From the NCBI GenBank assembly GCA_021732565.1, contig JAKFUT010000110.1, positions 1 through 38,175 of the forward strand: a stretch of 38,175 nucleotides of DNA. The letters are read 5' to 3'. Below are positions 2,719 through 26,056 of the stretch, piece by piece (the stretch's first letter is position 1; every line of letters starts with the position of its first letter). This DNA comes from Candidatus Obscuribacterales bacterium (GTDB taxonomy: Bacteria > Cyanobacteriota > Vampirovibrionia > Obscuribacterales > Obscuribacteraceae). The notes beneath the pieces are model-generated. The model was given only the letters and a program-made list of their open reading frames with translations, had not been told where the DNA came from and ran no database searches. The position numbers were made by a program, and so were the translations under genes.

Positions 2719-5700
2719 CTACTCCTTTTGCGCCGGTAACTTAGTTCGGCGCCGACTTATGCTGAAAATCAGAGGAACGAAAAATAAGGTAGAGAAAGTG
2801 GCCACGGTAAGCCCGCCGATTACGGCGCGACCGATTGGGGCATTCTGTGAGCCACCTTCGCCCGAACCGATCGCCATGGGAATCATGCCGATAATCATTG
2901 CCGTAGCAGTCATGATAACAGGACGAAAACGTTGATAGCCCGCATTCAACGCGGACGTAAAGGAGTCGAATCCTTCTTCCAGCTGCTCTCTGGCAAAAGT
3001 AACCATTAAAATGCTGTTGGCAGAAGCCACACCAATGGTCATGATCGCTCCCATAAGAGCAGGAATACTAAAGGTAGTCTGGGTGACGAACAGACTCCAC
3101 ATAATCCCCGACAGAGCTCCCGGTACAGCCATCAAAATAATTAGTGGATCGGTCCACGATTGAAAGTTGACGACAAGCAACAAATACACAAGCAGCACCG
3201 CGAATACCAGCCCTGCCAGAAGCGCTATAAATGCCAGATTCATACTTAAGACCTGGCCGGTCATGAATATGAACGTGGCAGACTTCCCGGCTCTCTCGAT
3301 GACAGAACTCGCGGAGGAATCTCTTGCATCTTGCGAATGCAAAACCAATAACTGTTTACCGTGATCTTCGTCAGAAAGTTTTATCGAGTACTTGCTCCCG
3401 ACCATTTCCATCTGCCTGTTTACTTTCTCCACAGCTCCTTTTACCTGCTTCTCCGGCACGCGTCCAAGAAGTTCCGCCAACTGAACGATGCATCGTTCTT
3501 TATCCTGATAGTCCATCTTTTGTTTTGCCTGCGCAATGAAGCGATCGGTTACACGAGCAACTTCTTGCTGCGAGGGAGCGCTACTTTGCTTGGCATCGGC
3601 TGCTATCTTTTCTTTGAATTCATCAACAATTTTCTTGAGATCTTCCGATACGCCCCCCAAATCGCGAAACTGGCACGAGACATAAACATCGTATACAGGC
3701 AACACCGACATGTGATTGACCACGGAAGGAGTCGCCGATCGCGAGAAGTTAGCCACGTTGGTGAGCACCGGTAGTTCTTCAACCGGTTGCGATTTCTTCG
3801 ACGGGGAGATCGACATGAATCTCATGTCGTCCAAACTGGCAATCTCACGCTGCGGTGTTTGCACAATCAGGTTGTAGTTAATTCTGCTCTTCTTGTCCAG
3901 CCAGAAATTCGGGTTGGTTTGAAAGCTCGAACTCAAGTTAACCAGAAATGAGTTGGAAATATCCTTTTGGGTCACGCCCATTTCTTCGGCGCGGGTTCGA
4001 TCGACTTCCCACTTGATGTATGGAGCATGCTGCACCTGGTGCACACATACATCAACCGCCCCGGGTACTTTTTCGATGCGCTTCTTAATGTCCACGGCCA
4101 GCTGATAGTTCTTTTCTCTGCTCAAACCGATTACTTTTATGTCAACGGGAGCAGGCAACCCTGCATTCAAAATCTGGGTAACAATGTCGGCCGGTTGGAA
4201 GTAGAGCTTGCATTCGGGAAATCTCTTCTTCACCATTTGCCTCAGAATGTGCTGATATTCCTGAGTTGTACGCGTACGCTTCTCGCTTAGAGTCAAACAA
4301 ATTTCACCATCAGCCTCACTTACCGTTTGACTATCCGAAAGGGCGTAATTCAGCCCGCTCACCGGCAATCCTATATTGTCGATAATCGAGACAAGCTGAT
4401 CGCGAGGAATGGTTTCTCTAATTGCATTTTCCACCCGGCCAAAGATCCGATCGGTCTCTTCCACACGAGTGCCCGGGGGCGCCGATACATGCAATCGCAA
4501 CTGCCCGGCATCGATAGCCGGAAAATAGTCGTAACCGATTTGCGGAAGCAAACAAAATGACACCGCATACAGCCCGAGAAAGAGCCCAATTGATGTTTTC
4601 GGGTGGAGCAGCACCCAGTTAAGACCATCTTTGTAGTGCTCGCGCGCAAACTCAAAGAGATTGTCCAGCAGGATATGAATAGAACCAAAAAATCCCATGA
4701 TTCCTTTGCTCGGCACCTTCTTTGCTCCCGGACCATGGGATTCGCTACCGAGCAGTCTCTTAGACATCAAAGGCACCAGCGTTCGAGACAACCCGTAAGA
4801 AGCAAGCATGGCAAAGGTTACCGACATTCCCAGCGGAACAAACAGTGAGCGCGAAGGTTCGGTAAGAAAAAGCAGAGGCACAAACACGATGCAAATAGAG
4901 AAAGTGGAGACCAGTGCGGGCATGGCGACCTGTTTGGCTCCGTCTAGAATCGCGGTCACAATATCCTTACCCATACCCATATTGCGGTGAACGTTTTCAA
5001 TTTCTACAGTGGCATCGTCAACCAGCATGCCCACAGCCAGGGCGAGCCCGCCAAGGGTCATGGAATTGATGGTCTGCCCGAAAACGGCAAGCCCGATCAT
5101 GGCGCTCAGTATTGCCAGCGGTATTGAAATAGCGACGATTAATGTACTGCGCCAGCTTCCCAAAAGCGCAAGAATCATAAGAGCAGTCAACCCGGCAGCA
5201 GTGGCTGCTTCTTTGATTACCTCGATAACACATTCGCGAACAAATGTAGACTGGTCTGTCAGCACGTTGATCTGGCACGCGGGAGGAACAAGCAAGCGAA
5301 TGCGCGGCAAAGCCTCTTTGAGCCGGTTAACCACCGTAAGAGTAGATGCATCGCCATTCTTCAGCACATTAAAAAGCACTGCCTTCTTGCCGTCTATGTT
5401 AACCACATTTGTTTGGGGAGAATAGCCGTCATGAACGCGAGCCACATCGCGCATGAACACCACCGCTCCATTGTTGCCGGAATTACCGCTTGTGCTGGTT
5501 TTGACCGGAATATCGTTCAATTCTGCAATCGACTCCGGTGTATTGTTCAAAACACAAATATACTCATACTCGCCCATTTTGGCGGTGCCGGAAGGTCCAA
5601 TTACATTCTGATTTTTCAGTGCAGTTACAATGTCACTGGCTGAGAGTCCGGTGGCGAAGAGTGCCTTGGGGTCTAGATCGACCACCACCTGACGATACTT

Positions 5701-6240
5701 GCCCCCATAGGGAAACGGAATTTTCGCCCCTTGCACGGTGGCGAGCTGACTGCGCACCAGATTGTTGGCTATGTCGAACAACTGATCTTCGGGCAAGGAG
5801 TCGCTCTGTATGCCGAGTTGAATCACAGGTACATCAGTGGCGCTGGTAGCCGTCACGAACGGAGGATTTATTCCTCTGGGTAACTGTCGCAAAATAGCAG
5901 TACAAACAGCTGTGGCCTGTGCCACATCTTCACCTACGGGGGTGCCCTTATTCAAATACAACTTAATTACGCTCATGCCGTTGAGCGAAACCGACTCCAT
6001 GTGCTGGATGCCGTTAATTGTAGTAGTAAGAGCTCTTTCGGTGACAGTCGAGATCAGGTTTTCCATGTAGAACGGAGACATGCCGCCGTATGTCCAGGCC
6101 ACGCTAACAATGGGAATATCGATGGACGGAAAAATATCAACGGCCATTCGGCCTATGGAAATCACGCCAAAAATTACGATAGTGATCGCCATGACGATAA
6201 ACGTGTGCGGCTTGCTCAGCGCCAGTTCCACAATCCACAT
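2719..6240 (-). CDS. RND-family efflux pump with extended second periplasmic region (1173 aa)
   Basis: This is a complete inner-membrane RND transporter. It has an N-terminal TM1, the proton-relay motif GMLVDDATVEIEN near residue 410, a central cytoplasmic linker, a second periplasmic domain with YFQPADIV and a C-terminal TM8-12 block. The Lys of AcrB TM10 is replaced (GVASANSILMV), which is common outside the AcrB subgroup. No Met-rich heavy-metal relay was noticed. The protein is about 120-150 residues longer than a usual HAE-1 pump. Much of the excess is a hydrophilic Lys/Glu/Gln-rich stretch at about residues 865-994, where the adjacent paralogue has only 24 residues. The ATG follows GGAGGT by 10 bases and lies 16 bases after the TolC-like gene, so it is in the same operon. 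A periplasmic adaptor should exist but is not in view. Confidence 0.95.
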   Translation of the reverse strand: MWIVELALSKPHTFIVMAITIVIFGVISIGRMAVDIFPSIDIPIVSVAWTYGGMSPFYMENLISTVTERALTTTINGIQHMESVSLNGMSVIKLYLNKGTPVGEDVAQATAVCTAILRQLPRGINPPFVTATSATDVPVIQLGIQSDSLPEDQLFDIANNLVRSQLATVQGAKIPFPYGGKYRQVVVDLDPKALFATGLSASDIVTALKNQNVIGPSGTAKMGEYEYICVLNNTPESIAELNDIPVKTSTSGNSGNNGAVVFMRDVARVHDGYSPQTNVVNIDGKKAVLFNVLKNGDASTLTVVNRLKEALPRIRLLVPPACQINVLTDQSTFVRECVIEVIKEAATAAGLTALMILALLGSWRSTLIVAISIPLAILSAMIGLAVFGQTINSMTLGGLALAVGMLVDDATVEIENVHRNMGMGKDIVTAILDGAKQVAMPALVSTFSICIVFVPLLFLTEPSRSLFVPLGMSVTFAMLASYGLSRTLVPLMSKRLLGSESHGPGAKKVPSKGIMGFFGSIHILLDNLFEFAREHYKDGLNWVLLHPKTSIGLFLGLYAVSFCLLPQIGYDYFPAIDAGQLRLHVSAPPGTRVEETDRIFGRVENAIRETIPRDQLVSIIDNIGLPVSGLNYALSDSQTVSEADGEICLTLSEKRTRTTQEYQHILRQMVKKRFPECKLYFQPADIVTQILNAGLPAPVDIKVIGLSREKNYQLAVDIKKRIEKVPGAVDVCVHQVQHAPYIKWEVDRTRAEEMGVTQKDISNSFLVNLSSSFQTNPNFWLDKKSRINYNLIVQTPQREIASLDDMRFMSISPSKKSQPVEELPVLTNVANFSRSATPSVVNHMSVLPVYDVYVSCQFRDLGGVSEDLKKIVDEFKEKIAADAKQSSAPSQQEVARVTDRFIAQAKQKMDYQDKERCIVQLAELLGRVPEKQVKGAVEKVNRQMEMVGSKYSIKLSDEDHGKQLLVLHSQDARDSSASSVIERAGKSATFIFMTGQVLSMNLAFIALLAGLVFAVLLVYLLLVVNFQSWTDPLIILMAVPGALSGIMWSLFVTQTTFSIPALMGAIMTIGVASANSILMVTFAREQLEEGFDSFTSALNAGYQRFRPVIMTATAMIIGMIPMAIGSGEGGSQNAPIGRAVIGGLTVATFSTLFFVPLIFSISRRRTKLPAQKE

Positions 6241-6256: not shown

Positions 6257-8296
6257 CTACTGCCTCACGGGAGCGGATGCAACCAGCGTCGTCGCAGATA
6301 TTCTGCCGATATCATGCAGCAACTGGGCTTGCGCAACGTTGAATTGTATGATGGCATTGGCCTTGTCAATTAGCGCCGAGGTGTAATCGCGTTGCGCGTT
6401 AATCACATCGAGGTTGGTGCCAACGCCGTTCTCCAACCGATCTTTCGCGACGCGCAACTGTTCCGCCGAAGAGTGTACGGCATCGGTTGTTTCGACAATC
6501 AAAGACTCAGCACTCATGCACGAGAGATACGTGTCGCGCACCTGTGCATAAATTTTATTTAGCTCATCGTTAAATTCAAGCTGCACCTTGCGTGCATTGG
6601 CCCGAGCCGACTGAATGTTACCCACATTCGTGACACCGAGCCCGCCGACGGTCCACTGAATATCCATGCCGATTACAAACAGCGAGCGCCCTCCCGACTT
6701 TGGCGGAGAGTTGCCACCGCCCTGCAACGGCAAGCTCGAACCACTGGATACCCCGGCGGTTGTGGCGGCACCACCGGAAGTGCTCAAGGATGTTTGTTGA
6801 GCACTGGAATTAGAATTGGAAGAAGACGACGAAGAATTGAGGCTGCGGATATTGGCATAGGTGCCAACCACGGTGCCACTCATCGACACTTTGGGAAGCA
6901 GCGGTGCCTTCGCAACCTGAATGGCTTCCTTGGCGGCAAGTCTAAGTTCCGTATATTTTTTCAGTTCAGGGCGATTATCGATGGCGATTCTCAGCAAATC
7001 GCCCACCATAAGATTCTTATCCACAAGACGTGTCTTAGTGATGTATCGATCTAACAAGGTCAGATCTACTCCCTCGTCTAAATTTACTGCACGCGCGAGC
7101 TTAACAGCGCTCTGCCGGCGTTCCACTTGCTGCTTAATGAGCTGTTGCCGTTCTCGAGACAATTGTGTTTTCGCCTGCAAGACTTCCAGCATCGTGTTGG
7201 CACCATTAGCGAAGAGATCTTGATTGATCAAATAGAGAGCACTGGCCGTTTCCGTCGATTTAATTCGAATCTGCAGTAATACATCATTCAACACGAGCTG
7301 ATAATAGAGCTTGGACGCTTCGAGCAACACATCGTTGGTATCGCCCTTCAAAGCGAACTGCGACGCCTTGTAGGTGTGCTTGTCTTGCAAAAATGTATGA
7401 AGCGGTCCGCCGCCCTGGTATAGATACCACTGAAAAGACGAGGGCATGTTGATGTAATAATTCTTGATCGGCAACGCCAGACCAGCCGGACTCACATATT
7501 GCCCGTTGAGACCTTGATAGCTAAACTCGTTGATCAAATTCGGCAAGAACCCGCCAACGGCGCCAATATATTGCCATCTATCCGCCTCACTCTTTTGTTC
7601 TGAAATTCTAATCGTCAAGTTTCCCGTCAACGCGGCATTAATCATGTCGTGCAAGTTAATTTCACGACTGCCCGTTCCTGTCGAATCCAGTTGATAGGGA
7701 GACAAACGATCATCTAGCCTGATCAAAGCGGTCAATAGCGGTGCTTTTACATAGACCTTCTCGGGGTCCACGAACATGGCACCGGAACTCTTGATCGTCT
7801 CTTCAACGATTGCATCGAGCTTCTCTTCCGCCTTCTTTGTCTCTTCCGGTACCGGTTTTTGAATTACTTGCGGCGTCGGCATCGACTGCTCTACGGGCCC
7901 CCTGAGGGGCGAAGGTGTAGTCATTCCGCCCGTCGGACTGGTCTGTTCCGGCAATTGGTTATTTTCCGGGGCCGGGGAATTTTCAGCAGCGAATGCGGGC
8001 ATACTGATACCAACGCTGACAACCAACAGCAACCATGCCACTACGGCGCCGAAGTCGCCAGAAAGGGCTTTTAGTGCGGAGCATCTACCAGATGCACACC
8101 ACGAAACAAGTGCCGAATCGACTGCGCGGATTGACAACCCGCCTTTGTTCACTGAAAACAGGCAGACTGGTAGAGTTTTCAAGCAAGGCTTCCACATAGC
8201 ACACACACTGCCAGACAACCTGCATATTCTTGCAGATAATTGGGGTGAGACGGCCAGGTATTTGGAATGTGAAGAGATGAACAGTTTGCCGCACAA
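6257..8296 (-). CDS. TolC-like outer-membrane efflux channel
   Basis: This is an outer-membrane factor that would give the RND pumps an exit duct. The mature part shows the two OEP repeats, with long amphipathic helices (for example QAKTQLSRERQQL and NAQRDYTSALIDKAN near the C-terminus). A Ser/Gly-rich low-complexity loop lies at about residues 480-540. A hydrophobic signal segment ending in AFA-A lies only at about residues 84-104, so the start is uncertain. The longest frame opens with TTG at 8296, and the first in-frame ATG is at 8197, still far upstream of the signal. Either the signal has an unusually long N-region or translation starts later at a non-ATG codon. It is the first gene of the efflux operon, with a 26-bp inverted repeat just upstream. 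Confidence 0.88.
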   Translation of the reverse strand: MCGKLFISSHSKYLAVSPQLSARICRLSGSVCAMWKPCLKTLPVCLFSVNKGGLSIRAVDSALVSWCASGRCSALKALSGDFGAVVAWLLLVVSVGISMPAFAAENSPAPENNQLPEQTSPTGGMTTPSPLRGPVEQSMPTPQVIQKPVPEETKKAEEKLDAIVEETIKSSGAMFVDPEKVYVKAPLLTALIRLDDRLSPYQLDSTGTGSREINLHDMINAALTGNLTIRISEQKSEADRWQYIGAVGGFLPNLINEFSYQGLNGQYVSPAGLALPIKNYYINMPSSFQWYLYQGGGPLHTFLQDKHTYKASQFALKGDTNDVLLEASKLYYQLVLNDVLLQIRIKSTETASALYLINQDLFANGANTMLEVLQAKTQLSRERQQLIKQQVERRQSAVKLARAVNLDEGVDLTLLDRYITKTRLVDKNLMVGDLLRIAIDNRPELKKYTELRLAAKEAIQVAKAPLLPKVSMSGTVVGTYANIRSLNSSSSSSNSNSSAQQTSLSTSGGAATTAGVSSGSSLPLQGGGNSPPKSGGRSLFVIGMDIQWTVGGLGVTNVGNIQSARANARKVQLEFNDELNKIYAQVRDTYLSCMSAESLIVETTDAVHSSAEQLRVAKDRLENGVGTNLDVINAQRDYTSALIDKANAIIQFNVAQAQLLHDIGRISATTLVASAPVRQ

Positions 8297-20696: not shown

Positions 20697-21635
20697 TCAC
20701 TTATCGAATGGATACGCTGCAAACAACGACGGTCCCATTCCCAAGTATGGATCTTCTAAGTGCACATGCAAGACCTCGCGAAAGATTCGATTGTTGATCA
20801 CATCGGGGCGAGGTGGAGCCATATCCGCCAGAATGCCGTGAGCTCGGCGCCGCCATACAGCTTCGTTAGCCACGGTGTCCTGGTATAGCTCAGTCCATGC
20901 GGCAACATTGCGTCGATTGGTGCCCTCATTTTCGCCAACCTTCTTGAGTGCAAACGTGAGCATTGGTTGTAATACTTCCTGTAAGGGCACCTTCTGCGAT
21001 TCGGTTTTATGATATGAACGAACCAGCTTAAATCGTTCGCACGCAGGTTCCCGGGTCAGCTCAATTGCAAGTTTATTCAGCCGTTCCAGACACTGTTTGA
21101 AAACTCCAGGCTCATAAATTCCCGGCAAAACATCCAGAACTTTTCCATCCCCGAAGCACACATAGGTAGCAATATTTCCTTGCATAGTGCGATTCACTAC
21201 ATTGCCATTTCCGAAATCGATTGTAACCAGTGGAACAGCGCGTGCCGTATGCCAGACTGGTTCATAGTTAGCGTTTATATAATCAGCTACTTCTTTATTA
21301 GAGAACAACACGGTTCTCGCCAGGCGGGCATTTACTCAACAGAATTCTTCGTCCAACCGCCCCAACATTTCAAACAACAATACAGGTTTTTCCGATTGCT
21401 TCGAAGCCTCACAAGCCGCTTCAAATGAATCTCTCCACTGCACCTTACCAGGCACGGCACGGGGATTTTGAGCCGTTACCGGTACCGAACAAGCATTCGC
21501 TTGCGGCACCTCAACGTTACTTGATGAGTCTTCTCCATATCCAGGTGGAATGACCCAACCGAGCGAAAGAACGGTACAGGTGGTGAGAACGACACCAGCC
21601 AAGAAGCCGGACATTTGATAAAGATTGCATTTCAT
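20697..21635 (-). CDS. Thioredoxin-like exported protein with in-frame TGA: candidate selenoprotein
   Basis: The frame opens with ATG at 21635 after GGAGAG. It encodes an N-terminal signal or membrane anchor (residues 9-29), then a thioredoxin-like N-terminal pattern WRDSFEAACEASKQSEKPVLLFEMLGRLDEEFC. Codon 100, directly after Cys99, is TGA (21336-21338). The same frame then continues without another stop for 212 codons as VNARLARTVLFSNKEVADYINANYEPVW and VPLVTIDFGNGNVVNRTMQGN. The sequence on both sides belongs to one fold, and the position after the Cys is where redox pairs sit, so selenocysteine is the natural reading. A hairpin suited to a bacterial SECIS begins 17 bases after the TGA. 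A fresh nonsense mutation is the main alternative. TGA ends other genes here (15032, 37816), so whole-genome recoding is unlikely. The gene follows the tail-anchored gene by 39 bases. Confidence 0.65.
21301..21318 (-). promoter_or_regulatory. Candidate bacterial SECIS hairpin
   Basis: In the transcript GAGAAC pairs with GUUCUC around the loop CGUGUU. The hairpin starts 17 bases, and the apical loop 23 bases, after the in-frame UGA. Known bacterial SECIS elements place the loop roughly 16-37 bases after the UGA and have a G among the first loop bases; both hold here. A 6-bp stem could also occur by chance. Confidence 0.4.
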
Positions 21636-21674
21636 AGCGGCTCTCCATATTCCGTGTTACGAAGCGAACCTGAT

Positions 21675-22217
21675 TTACTGTTGCGGATCACTGAATTTGT
21701 TGAGTCTATCGAGCTGGCTATTAATGGTGCTGAACGATTGTGATACCGCACTTTGCAGAGTGCCTTTCGCAAAACTGAAGCAGAAAACAATTACTAGAAA
21801 ACCGAACAGAAGACAGAGCAAAACAGCAGATGCAACCCCCTGCGCAACCCCAGTGACAAAAGCATTGCTTTTATTGGACGCCTTTCCAGGGGCTCGTTCG
21901 AGAAACGCTTCGCTTTTGCCATTCTTTGTAAAAGCTGTCACTCTAACGGGGCTGTTTTGCTCGGCGAGACTTTCGTTTAACCTGCCCACAGCCGCATCTG
22001 CAGCCTTTTCTCCGCACGAGTCGCTGATCTTTCTGAGAAGGTCCAGGAACGTCTTATGATCCTCTTTGCTGTCAACACCCGCACTCTGAGCAGCGAATCT
22101 AGTGCCCGCGGACAGAAATTCATTGGCAATTGTCGTTTCCAGAGGCTCAGATGCATGAGAATCTGATGGTAGGAGGGAAGGCTCTTCCGCTCTCCCGGTA
22201 GACGATTCCTTGATCAT
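21675..22217 (-). CDS. C-terminally anchored membrane protein of unknown function (180 aa)
   Basis: The ATG at 22217 is chosen because GAGGA precedes it at good distance. The longer frame to 22316 adds an unlikely Cys/Val-rich head. Residues 1-115 are soluble and charged (KEDHKTFLDLLRKISDS, AADAAVGRLNESLAE). A single strong membrane segment lies at about residues 120-150 (GVASAVLLCLLFGFLVIVF), followed by a short helical tail. I do not recognise a family. It is 39 bases upstream of the thioredoxin-like gene on the same strand, so it is likely co-transcribed with it. Confidence 0.7.
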   Translation of the reverse strand: MIKESSTGRAEEPSLLPSDSHASEPLETTIANEFLSAGTRFAAQSAGVDSKEDHKTFLDLLRKISDSCGEKAADAAVGRLNESLAEQNSPVRVTAFTKNGKSEAFLERAPGKASNKSNAFVTGVAQGVASAVLLCLLFGFLVIVFCFSFAKGTLQSAVSQSFSTINSQLDRLNKFSDPQQ

Positions 22218-22516
22218 TTTGCAATTCCTCATAACACTCACCATCACCTTCAGATCTCTGTTTCGCACAGCCACACATGATTGGCAGCACGCCTCCATCA
22301 CTGAGAGTAATTCCATTCTCCGTTTTTCTTTGATCGACGAAACTACCCTCTACAACAAACACGACCCGGGGTTAGCCCTAAGACAATTCGTCAACCTTTA
22401 TTGCTCCGGCGTGATGAGCGAGCTGACACCGCAGGCCGCCCGTGCAGTGCCTGCCATATTTGGACAACATCGACAATCGATGAATCAATTGTGAGCCCGC
22501 TCAACTCGCTTCAGCT

Positions 22517-23352: not shown

Positions 23353-23475
23353 ACTAATTGTCTCTCCATGTGGTCCTGCCTACTTCACCCGGTGCGCCCA
23401 CATGATAACCCCTTAACCCCAAAATGCGCTTCTTGTCGTTAAATGCAACAAGCCGGAATACAGAGAGCACAAAAT

Positions 23476-24930
23476 ATGAAACTCACGCTAATCAACCACG
23501 CTTGCTGCAAGGTTTCAGCCGGCTCAGTGAACATTCTGTTCGATCCATGGGTAGAGGGCACAGCCTTCAACAACGGCTGGGATTTGTTAATTCCCACTCC
23601 TTTATCTTTCGATCAAATAATGGAAGGGGTTTCATACCTCTGGATGTCGCATGAACATCCTGATCATTTTTCGGTGCCCTTTCTCTCTCGTGTGGCGAAA
23701 ACTCATCGAGACAAAGTCACCATTTTGTTTCAGAAAACACGAGACCGCAGAGTTTTCAATTTTTGTGCCTCGCTGGGATTGACGGTCCGAGAGCTCGATG
23801 ACAAAGTTCCAACGAAATTGAACGACGAGATCACCGTCACTTGCGGGGTAGCGGATTTCTACGATTCCTGGTTATATATCAGTGACGGAAAAACCTCTAT
23901 TCTAAATTTGAATGATGTTCATACCCGCAGTGACAGCGAGCTTAAACAAATTGCTCGATGGGCTCCTTCACCGACCGTGATGCTCGCTCAGTTCAGCTAT
24001 GCATCATGGAAGGGCGGCCGTGAAAACTCACACTATAGATCCATGGCAGCTACCCAAAAATTGCAGACGCTGGCCAGACAGGTTCGCTGGTTAAAGCCTA
24101 AGCATGCCATGCCGTTTGCAAGTCTCATATATTTCTCAAATGAAGAAAACAGTTACCTGAACGACTGCATCAACACCCCCGCCAAAGCTTCCATGGTCAT
24201 TCAGGAAGCAGGTGCCACACCAGTGGTACTTTATCCCGGTGAGGAGTGGGACATTGCAGCTGGTGAGCACGACAATTCGAAAGCGCTCTCTCTCTATGAA
24301 AGCGTTTACGCAAATCTCGACGCCCTACCTCTACGAAACGCAGGGGTTTCAGCCAGTCTTGAAGAGATCAGAACGGAGTTTCGCAAATACCAGAATAGAA
24401 TTTTCGCAAAGAACTCTCGCATGCTCATCTTGCTACTAACCAGACTTGCGCTCATGAAGGCATTTCAGCCAGTAACCATCAAGCTCTCCGATACAGGGAT
24501 CACGGTCTCTCTCTCAATAATTGACGGGCTTGCGGAACTCGACGCAAAGACGGCTCTTCCTGATGTTAGCATGCACTCTTCATCGCTACTTTTCATTTTG
24601 AAGAACGAATTCGGGTTTGACACGCTCTGTGTAAATGGCAGATTTGAGTGCAGCACGGCAGGTTTTGCCAGAATGACAAAGGCCTTTGCAGTTGGTTCGC
24701 TCAACGCGATGGGGCTTTCACTGGCACCGGCTTTATTGTTCGACGTACGTTTCATCGTAATCTTGTTGAGAATTCTGCACGGGGTAATGACCAAACTTCA
24801 AGCTAGCGAGCGCTCCAGTGGAAAGCTGGAGGAGCAGAGGAAGAGCCAAATTGCCGGTGCGGCCGTGAAGCCACGCACGGCTAATCCGGCAGGGAAGGAC
24901 GAGGAAAGCGAATTGCTTAGAACTCGCTAG
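23476..24930 (+). CDS. Metallo-beta-lactamase-fold hydrolase (UlaG/CMP-Neu5Ac hydroxylase-like), 484 aa
   Basis: The N-terminal half is an MBL-fold enzyme: MKLTLINHACCKV opens the fold, ILFDPWVEGTAF is the first Asp strand, and SHEHPDHF (residues 58-65) is the HxHxDH metal-binding motif. Later NLNDVHTRS and MPFASLIYF give further metal and active-site positions. The arrangement resembles UlaG/RomA-like proteins and the MBL part of CMP-N-acetylneuraminate hydroxylases, though no Rieske iron-sulphur motif is present. Residues 300-470 form an additional helical domain with a hydrophobic stretch near 425-445 that I cannot name. The start at 23476 is supported by AGAGAG; an in-frame ATG at 23443 is less likely. 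The substrate is unknown. Confidence 0.85.
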   Translation: MKLTLINHACCKVSAGSVNILFDPWVEGTAFNNGWDLLIPTPLSFDQIMEGVSYLWMSHEHPDHFSVPFLSRVAKTHRDKVTILFQKTRDRRVFNFCASLGLTVRELDDKVPTKLNDEITVTCGVADFYDSWLYISDGKTSILNLNDVHTRSDSELKQIARWAPSPTVMLAQFSYASWKGGRENSHYRSMAATQKLQTLARQVRWLKPKHAMPFASLIYFSNEENSYLNDCINTPAKASMVIQEAGATPVVLYPGEEWDIAAGEHDNSKALSLYESVYANLDALPLRNAGVSASLEEIRTEFRKYQNRIFAKNSRMLILLLTRLALMKAFQPVTIKLSDTGITVSLSIIDGLAELDAKTALPDVSMHSSSLLFILKNEFGFDTLCVNGRFECSTAGFARMTKAFAVGSLNAMGLSLAPALLFDVRFIVILLRILHGVMTKLQASERSSGKLEEQRKSQIAGAAVKPRTANPAGKDEESELLRTR

Positions 24931-25009
24931 ACCTTCTCAGAGTTTCAAAGAATTTTCAACATTGCCCCATAAGATGTCCTGGTTGAGACAAAACCCGGGG
25001 AGACTGGCA

Positions 25010-26056
25010 ATGGCAAACAGACTCAGCGAGAATGGCGACTCTTGCAATTCACGAAACGAATCTCCAATGACAAACAAGGACCACCGCGCCTTCAGTGAGC
25101 TTGCTCGTACCGCAATGGACGAAGCCAGAGCTAGATATAACAAAGCCGAAAAGAGCAACGGTAGCGATGAGTTATCTTCCGGCAACGGAGATGATTTTGC
25201 GGCTCTTTGTCGTGCAAAGGCTATGATTCAGCACGAGATCCGTCGTGCTGCCAGAGAAGCAGTAGCGCGTCAGATCGAAGCCGAATCGGCCGATGCCAGG
25301 TCCGCCTATACGGCGAAGGAAACCGACCGCGATGGTGTGCGAGGAGTTCGCGCGATAACAATAGTTTCGCCCTCGCTGGATTCTGCATCTTCCGAATCGA
25401 ATCAACTTGTGCAGGAGACGCAACGGCGTACAGCTGCAATCGACCGCCTGCGCGAAAAACTGTGGCACTTGAAGCAGTCCGATCTGATTGTAGGGTGCAA
25501 ATCAAATACACCTAACGACAAAGCACGGTCAACAGACCTCCGTTCAGCAAATCGTCTCCCACCGAAGGCTGAGGCGTCGAGCACAAAAACCAGACCCGAG
25601 GTGGTGACGGATTATTATCGATACAACCAGATCGACTGCGTTGGACCGGCACCTACTAAGCCTGACGTCGAATTCAGCAGTTACGTGGTGCAAAAGGGAG
25701 ATACCCTGACGGCCATTGCCAGAAAGATGACGGGTCCGGAAGCCAGCCCCCGACAAGTGTTTGATACTGTACATCAGATTGCACGTCTAAATGGAATAGT
25801 CGATCCAAATCGGATCAAGGAGCATGCTCATATTCTCGTGCCGCCTGCTCCACAACCAATCGCTAAAGACGAGCTCTTCTATAAAGTGGTTGCTGGAGAC
25901 AATCTGACCAGCATTGCCCGAAAAACTCTGGACCCGAATGCTACCCCCCGTGCCATTCACGAGAGAGTCCTGGAGATAACAAAGCTAAACGGCCTTAACA
26001 ATCCGAATCGTATCCGGCCAAATGAATCACTAAAGATTCCACGACCACAGCACTAG
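25010..26056 (+). CDS. Protein with two C-terminal LysM domains and no signal peptide (348 aa)
   Basis: Two LysM repeats close the protein, at about residues 223-281 (SYVVQKGDTLTAIARKM...LNGIVDPNRI) and 290-346 (FYKVVAGDNLTSIARKT...LNGLNNPNRI). LysM domains bind N-acetylglucosamine polymers such as peptidoglycan. The first 215 residues are polar, with a helical region rich in Ala, Arg and Glu, and have no signal peptide or membrane segment, which is odd for a wall-binding protein. The ATG at 25010 is chosen for its GGGGAG site 7 bases upstream. It follows the MBL gene on the same strand after 79 bases and may share its transcript. Confidence 0.85.
   Translation: MANRLSENGDSCNSRNESPMTNKDHRAFSELARTAMDEARARYNKAEKSNGSDELSSGNGDDFAALCRAKAMIQHEIRRAAREAVARQIEAESADARSAYTAKETDRDGVRGVRAITIVSPSLDSASSESNQLVQETQRRTAAIDRLREKLWHLKQSDLIVGCKSNTPNDKARSTDLRSANRLPPKAEASSTKTRPEVVTDYYRYNQIDCVGPAPTKPDVEFSSYVVQKGDTLTAIARKMTGPEASPRQVFDTVHQIARLNGIVDPNRIKEHAHILVPPAPQPIAKDELFYKVVAGDNLTSIARKTLDPNATPRAIHERVLEITKLNGLNNPNRIRPNESLKIPRPQH

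Follow-up and report, generated by a model that had tools for sequence, protein, structure and literature searches.

Organization of the Locus

On the minus strand of the 38,175-nt stretch of DNA analyzed here (hereafter the window), a frame of 312 codons (21635..20697) is interrupted by one interior TGA at codon 100 (21338-21336) and closes with a second, terminal TGA (20699-20697). The codon just before the interior TGA is TGT, encoding Cys-99, and the ATG at 21635 is preceded, at a distance of 7 nt, by GGAG (21643..21646, minus strand), which we read from the sequence as the likely ribosome-binding site. Frame, coordinates, the single TGA at codon 100 and the adjoining Cys codon were all recovered as an earlier first-pass annotation of this DNA had given them. 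It had also predicted that an ORF caller would split the gene in two, and the ORF finder indeed returned one ORF of 99 aa (21336-21635) and another of 204 aa (20697-21311), the first usable start of the latter being a GTG at 21311, within the loop of an RNA hairpin described below.

Read through the UGA as selenocysteine (Sec), the gene (20697..21635, minus strand) would encode an N-terminal signal peptide or signal anchor at approximately residues 1-34 (21534..21635), read from the sequence and clearer as a signal peptide in homologues, followed by a putative thioredoxin-fold-like domain at approximately residues 63-190 (21066..21449), which contains the pair Cys99-Sec100 (Sec codon, 21336..21338). 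The C-terminal domain, approximately residues 240-312 (20700..20918), is conserved both in the group A and in the Cys homologues described below, and belongs to no known family. Homologues span the whole length of the read-through protein, and judging from their lengths the terminal TGA is the true stop.

Immediately upstream and on the same strand, an ORF for a 213-aa protein (21675-22316, minus strand) ends 40 bp before the gene and may be carried on one transcript with it; this protein had no Pfam match and has one predicted-looking membrane segment. Elsewhere in the window, reading of the ORF list showed two adjacent large ORFs (2-2713 and 2719-6240, minus strand) of closely similar, RND efflux transporter-like sequence, after which comes an outer-membrane-factor-like ORF (6257-8296), while the plus strand carries a metallo-beta-lactamase-fold-like protein (23443-24930; match below threshold) and then a protein with two LysM domains (24962-26056). 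Relatives of the window's neighbors were never found beside a homologue of the gene in other genomes, and no gene neighborhood was shared beyond one genus. The 22 larger ORFs of the window stop at TAA (11), TAG (nine) or TGA (two), so that UGA is rare, and the gene itself accounts for one of the two TGA cases.

Homologues With an In-Frame UGA

A search of 50 genomes of the same family with the read-through protein gave matches in 25, and nearly all matches that cover the active site hold exactly one in-frame TGA. The closest relatives form a group of 18 members including the window protein (group A), in which TGA occupies the equivalent codon in 18/18, within the motif [ER]FC-U-[TVA]NA[RQ][LM]AR[TS]VLF (also given as FC-U-[TVA]NARLARTVLFS). 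A sister group (group B) contributed 66 distinct sequences with TGA at the corresponding codon, and its motif is TU-SA[GA]NS[LM]RA[VG]SLS. Of the 53 genomes of the order, 40 gave a total of 106 matches to a profile of group A; an in-frame TGA is present in 99 of these matches, and up to eight matches to the superfamily were found in a single genome. Another 55 records, some of which repeat earlier loci, were read, and all had TGA at the equivalent place with the lone exception of L156, a thioredoxin-fold protein with a conventional CxxC.

Profile-profile alignment united groups A and B with a probability of 98.4% and placed Sec on Sec. MAFFT by itself put the one-residue gap of group B behind the Sec; the Sec-on-Sec placement is adopted because of the profile-profile alignment together with the fixed spacing between UGA and hairpin. 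The groups differ in their cysteines: in group A the sole other invariant Cys is the one directly preceding Sec (Cys-99), whereas group B lacks a neighboring Cys and has one distant invariant Cys (in CLPG).

The genome from which the window derives also holds L036 (G000:C158:9488-10099), a copy that shares 57% identity with residues 112-312 of the window protein but has neither a signal peptide nor the Cys-Sec segment, and is a truncated paralogue or a pseudogene. The presence of this paralogue without an active-site region would fit the notion that the window gene, too, is merely split by a nonsense mutation, a sequencing error or decay into a pseudogene. This explanation is refuted by the recurrence of TGA at the same codon in dozens of separately assembled genomes, with the frame intact afterwards, and we give it virtually no credence.

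Relatives Without Selenocysteine

A search of 386 genomes from the phylum with the group-B profile recovered stop-free proteins, mostly of about 430 aa, from 24 other genomes. These are homologues of group A, to which the domain model of that group gives 85-137 bits and which carry the motif LSC-ANSRFFR. PsaA/PsaB were detected in 20 of 59 sampled genomes of the phylum and in none of the 21 sampled from the window's class (among 14 control genomes, matches were confined to Synechococcus), and we therefore place the window in a non-photosynthetic class of the phylum Cyanobacteriota. In all 23 of the wholly readable homologues from photosynthetic genomes, a Cys codon (TGT or TGC) stands exactly at the Sec column, and the C-terminal domain is common to all. 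The first-pass annotation had proposed looking for Cys or Sec at position 100 in homologues, and both were found: Sec-UGA in 18/18 close homologues and Cys in 23/23 from photosynthetic genomes.

The photosynthetic-genome proteins (L162-L185, unnamed) are thus full-length counterparts of the window protein, C-terminal domain included, but they differ from it in having Cys for Sec and Ser for the adjacent Cys, in lacking such a hairpin, and in possessing two other conserved Cys residues upstream. In a tree of the domain, these proteins and group B are each set off by a well-supported branch, and the unity of group A is moderately supported. Two members from the non-photosynthetic family also lack Sec: the group-B protein L058 (G030:C80) has Cys (TGT) and the group-A relative L038 (G013:C1) has Glu (GAG) at this position, and in both the hairpin is degraded.

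The same homologues bear on the reading given by the ORF finder, namely that the locus consists of two separate genes, one for a short exported peptide and one for the downstream ORF. Since the downstream ORF would start within the hairpin and has no visible ribosome-binding site, and the homologues of photosynthetic genomes are single uninterrupted proteins, we rejected this possibility as exceedingly improbable and treat the locus as one gene.

The SECIS-Like Hairpin

A 6-bp hairpin with the loop CGUGUU, said by the first-pass annotation to begin 17 nt past the UGA, was found as described. It occupies 21301..21318 on the minus strand (loop, 21312-21307), corresponding to positions +18 to +35 after the UGA. 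Taken alone, this hairpin does not stand out from the 66 nt in which it lies (z -0.58), and the case was therefore decided on relatives. It is conservation, with TGA in 18/18 members of group A and the same hairpin in both groups, that lifts the hairpin above chance.

The distance from UGA to hairpin is equal in the two groups, and the element reads GAGAAC-CGUGUU-GUUCUC in A and GAGAGC-CGUGUC-GCUCUC in B. All six pairs are present in 72 of 84 distinct sequences and five pairs in nine more. Over 30 distinct sequences, 97.2% of cells are paired, a fraction that falls to 31.7-63.9% if the 3' partners are shifted along. Compensatory change is seen at one pair (AU in 15 sequences, GC in 14), and in the same 30 sequences the covariation score exceeded all 500 shuffles, although this control is inflated by relatedness and one shifted version had a similar covariation score. 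For these reasons we put the weight on the paired fraction, on the freezing of codons and on the occurrence of the element in two different amino-acid contexts. The freezing is pronounced: inside the hairpin, Val is GTG in 18/18 (A) and 59/59 (B) cases (backgrounds across these genes, 0.29 and 0.23), Thr is ACC in 17/17 (background, 0.30) and Ala is GCC in 64/64 (background, 0.35), while neighboring codons vary. Furthermore, the hairpin is lost in the Sec-free relatives.

A covariance model of the element matched the window at 21338-21298 with an E-value of 8.4e-9, a value to be read with the window sequence being part of the training set. Applied to two genomes of the genus, the model gave ten matches with E-values up to 0.011, every one inside a member of the family, and four of these were outside the training of the model (C73 and C291 in the window's genome; C27 and C49 in the congener).

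The published bSECIS model calls for a stem of 4-16 bp, a loop of 3-9 nt with G in one of its first two positions and located 16-37 nt after the UGA, and a minimum free energy of -7.5 kcal/mol or below (PMC13188914). The window hairpin has this geometry, with 6 bp, a 6-nt loop in which G is second and followed by U, and 23 nt between UGA and loop. Its stem has an energy of -5.4 kcal/mol alone and -6.8 kcal/mol once three neighboring bases are included at either end, the 48-nt region reaches -10.1 kcal/mol, and the consensus stem of group B has -8.1 kcal/mol. The comparison with bSECIS that the first-pass annotation had suggested came out in favor of the element in geometry, the energy of the isolated stem alone falling short of the limit.

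Selenocysteine Machinery and Decoding of the UGA

The window's own genome encodes a tRNA-Sec with a UCA anticodon (68.9 bits) and a SelB of 646 aa (333 bits), a pair reported to be the signature of Sec decoding (PMC1273633). The first-pass annotation had pointed to selA, selB, selD and tRNA-Sec as the genes to look for, and here the outcome was divided: selB and tRNA-Sec are present, but selA and an above-cut-off selD were not found in the draft genome, which is 67% complete. Both occur in a genome of the same genus, G027 (selA, 5.9e-162; selD, 4.9e-108), and in the 50 family genomes selA, selD and tRNA-Sec were over cut-off in 35, 42 and 39, respectively. Seven genomes from three genera carry the tRNA-Sec gene and a group-B gene on one contig, approximately 12-16 kb apart (G004:C72, G006:C30, G007:C128, G029:C1, G030:C77, G031:C3, and G045:C183).

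A changed code or leaky read-through could insert an ordinary amino acid at the UGA in place of Sec, for which the rarity of UGA as a stop (2 of the 22 window ORFs counted) might be taken to speak. We rejected this explanation, which we rate as very improbable, on account of Cys being the alternative residue, the conserved SECIS-like hairpin, the presence of tRNA-Sec and SelB, and the fact that two window ORFs, one of them the gene itself, do terminate at UGA. Taken together, the conserved UGA, the substitution by Cys, the RNA element and the presence of tRNA-Sec with SelB strongly support the selenoprotein interpretation that the first-pass annotation had put forward, and by these comparisons the gene is almost certainly a genuine selenoprotein gene whose family is absent from the catalogues consulted. 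On this comparative basis, SelB and Sec-tRNA(UCA) would decode UGA-100 as selenocysteine, steered by the hairpin 18-35 nt downstream.

Fold, Export, and Relation to Known Families

From weak Pfam and NCBIfam matches, the alignment to the CxxC relative L156 and the signal-peptide-like N-termini, we infer that the protein is thioredoxin-like and exported. The Pfam scores for Thioredox_DsbH and Thioredoxin_7 were 14.6 and 12.9 bits against a gathering threshold of 27. An AlphaFold single-sequence model of the domain was unusable (pLDDT 34), searches of solved structures gave no sequence relative in the PDB and nothing usable, and a contig scan of the genome gave one short match that is probably spurious. 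Counted back from the conserved [FY]-x-[ND] that closes the active-site helix, Sec aligns with the first Cys of the CxxC of L156; this register is our own reading, as HMMER places the gap ambiguously. In the alignments of groups A and B we saw neither a retained CxxC nor a canonical cis-Pro motif.

The probable fold family, Thioredox_DsbH/DUF255 (PF03190) and Thioredoxin_7 (PF13899), is matched weakly over the domain and below the gathering cut-off, and the window family has C-Sec-x-x-A in place of CxxC. Among catalogued selenoproteins, the thioredoxin-like VPGUxxT Trx-like (seleno)proteins NF041382/NF041383 (OS_HP5 in the catalogue) are weakly matched by alignment members (NF041383 by 13 of 19, NF041382 by eight; best E-value, 3.1e-5), but the window protein reaches 14.4 bits where the cut-off is 275, its match is confined to residues 63-88, and the motif of the family is FCU(V/T/A)NA (FCUVNA in the window) and not VPGUxxT. 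The Trx7/PDZ (seleno)proteins NF041199 are Thioredoxin_7-like and were matched very weakly by the Cys homologues (11.6-12.2 bits; cut-off, 300), whereas the window protein had no match and no PDZ domain was found; moreover, the catalogued motif is CxxU as opposed to CU here.

Hence the window protein is not assigned by any NCBIfam or Pfam model, and the nearest selenoprotein models remain far under their cut-offs. A catalogue from 2026, which covers 119 families and subfamilies of prokaryotic selenoproteins, lists CU motifs in other proteins only, and none of its 119 entries is a family with the window motif (PMC13188914). We thus consider the proteins to constitute a new family of thioredoxin-like selenoproteins with ordinary bacterial decoding. 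The family is apparently undescribed, and it may already be recorded in other papers or in annotation that is unpublished.

Proposed Function and Distribution

Given the position of Sec at the place of the first Cys and the single adjacent invariant Cys, we favor an extracytoplasmic redox enzyme that is peroxidase- or reductase-like. Sec would stand for the first, nucleophilic Cys of a thioredoxin CxxC of which the second Cys has been lost, its selenol would reduce a peroxide, a disulfide or another oxidized group outside the cytoplasm, and Cys-99 would resolve the intermediate as a vicinal selenenylsulfide. By analogy, redox chemistry of this sort is somewhat probable, and for the narrower proposal, that the vicinal Cys-Sec pair is the resolving couple, the odds appear slightly unfavorable.

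A selenoprotein might instead use its Cys-Sec pair to bind a metal, a metalloid or another ligand, without redox turnover, as no CxxC is kept, no canonical cis-Pro motif was seen, and a vicinal CU is known from catalogued metal-related selenoproteins, among them SaoL, HgcA, and MbdU (PMC13188914, Table 1). However, Sec coincides with the nucleophilic Cys in the CxxC of a thioredoxin fold, group B retains Sec without an adjacent Cys, and no metal-handling genes were recognized next to the gene. Ligand binding is therefore unlikely in our view, and we retain the redox enzyme as the preferred reading.

A broader scenario is offered tentatively: the order may export an enlarged set of selenoproteins based on a single thioredoxin-like superfamily, in which Sec would be ancestral and Cys a later replacement in oxygenic cyanobacteria, with group A resolving via its vicinal Cys and group B via the distant CLPG Cys. 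A 2022 review counts Cyanobacteria among the few lineages apparently without Sec (PMC9312934), and no relevant paper on Sec came up for Melainabacteria, Vampirovibrio or Obscuribacter in the literature searched; the present loci place Sec decoding in this phylum. They also add an uncatalogued selenoprotein superfamily of about a hundred loci in the order, whose proteins standard annotation would truncate at the active site. Since Sec in the non-photosynthetic branch is cleanly paired with Cys in the oxygenic branch of the same phylum, the relation between oxygen and the retention of Sec becomes directly testable. Lastly, four more divergent relatives with an in-frame TGA (L096, L097, L151, and L160) carry the motifs [DG][CG]U[IM][GA][GS]RM[AT]RGSSLS and ATUGNGHLSR, and their hairpins differ.
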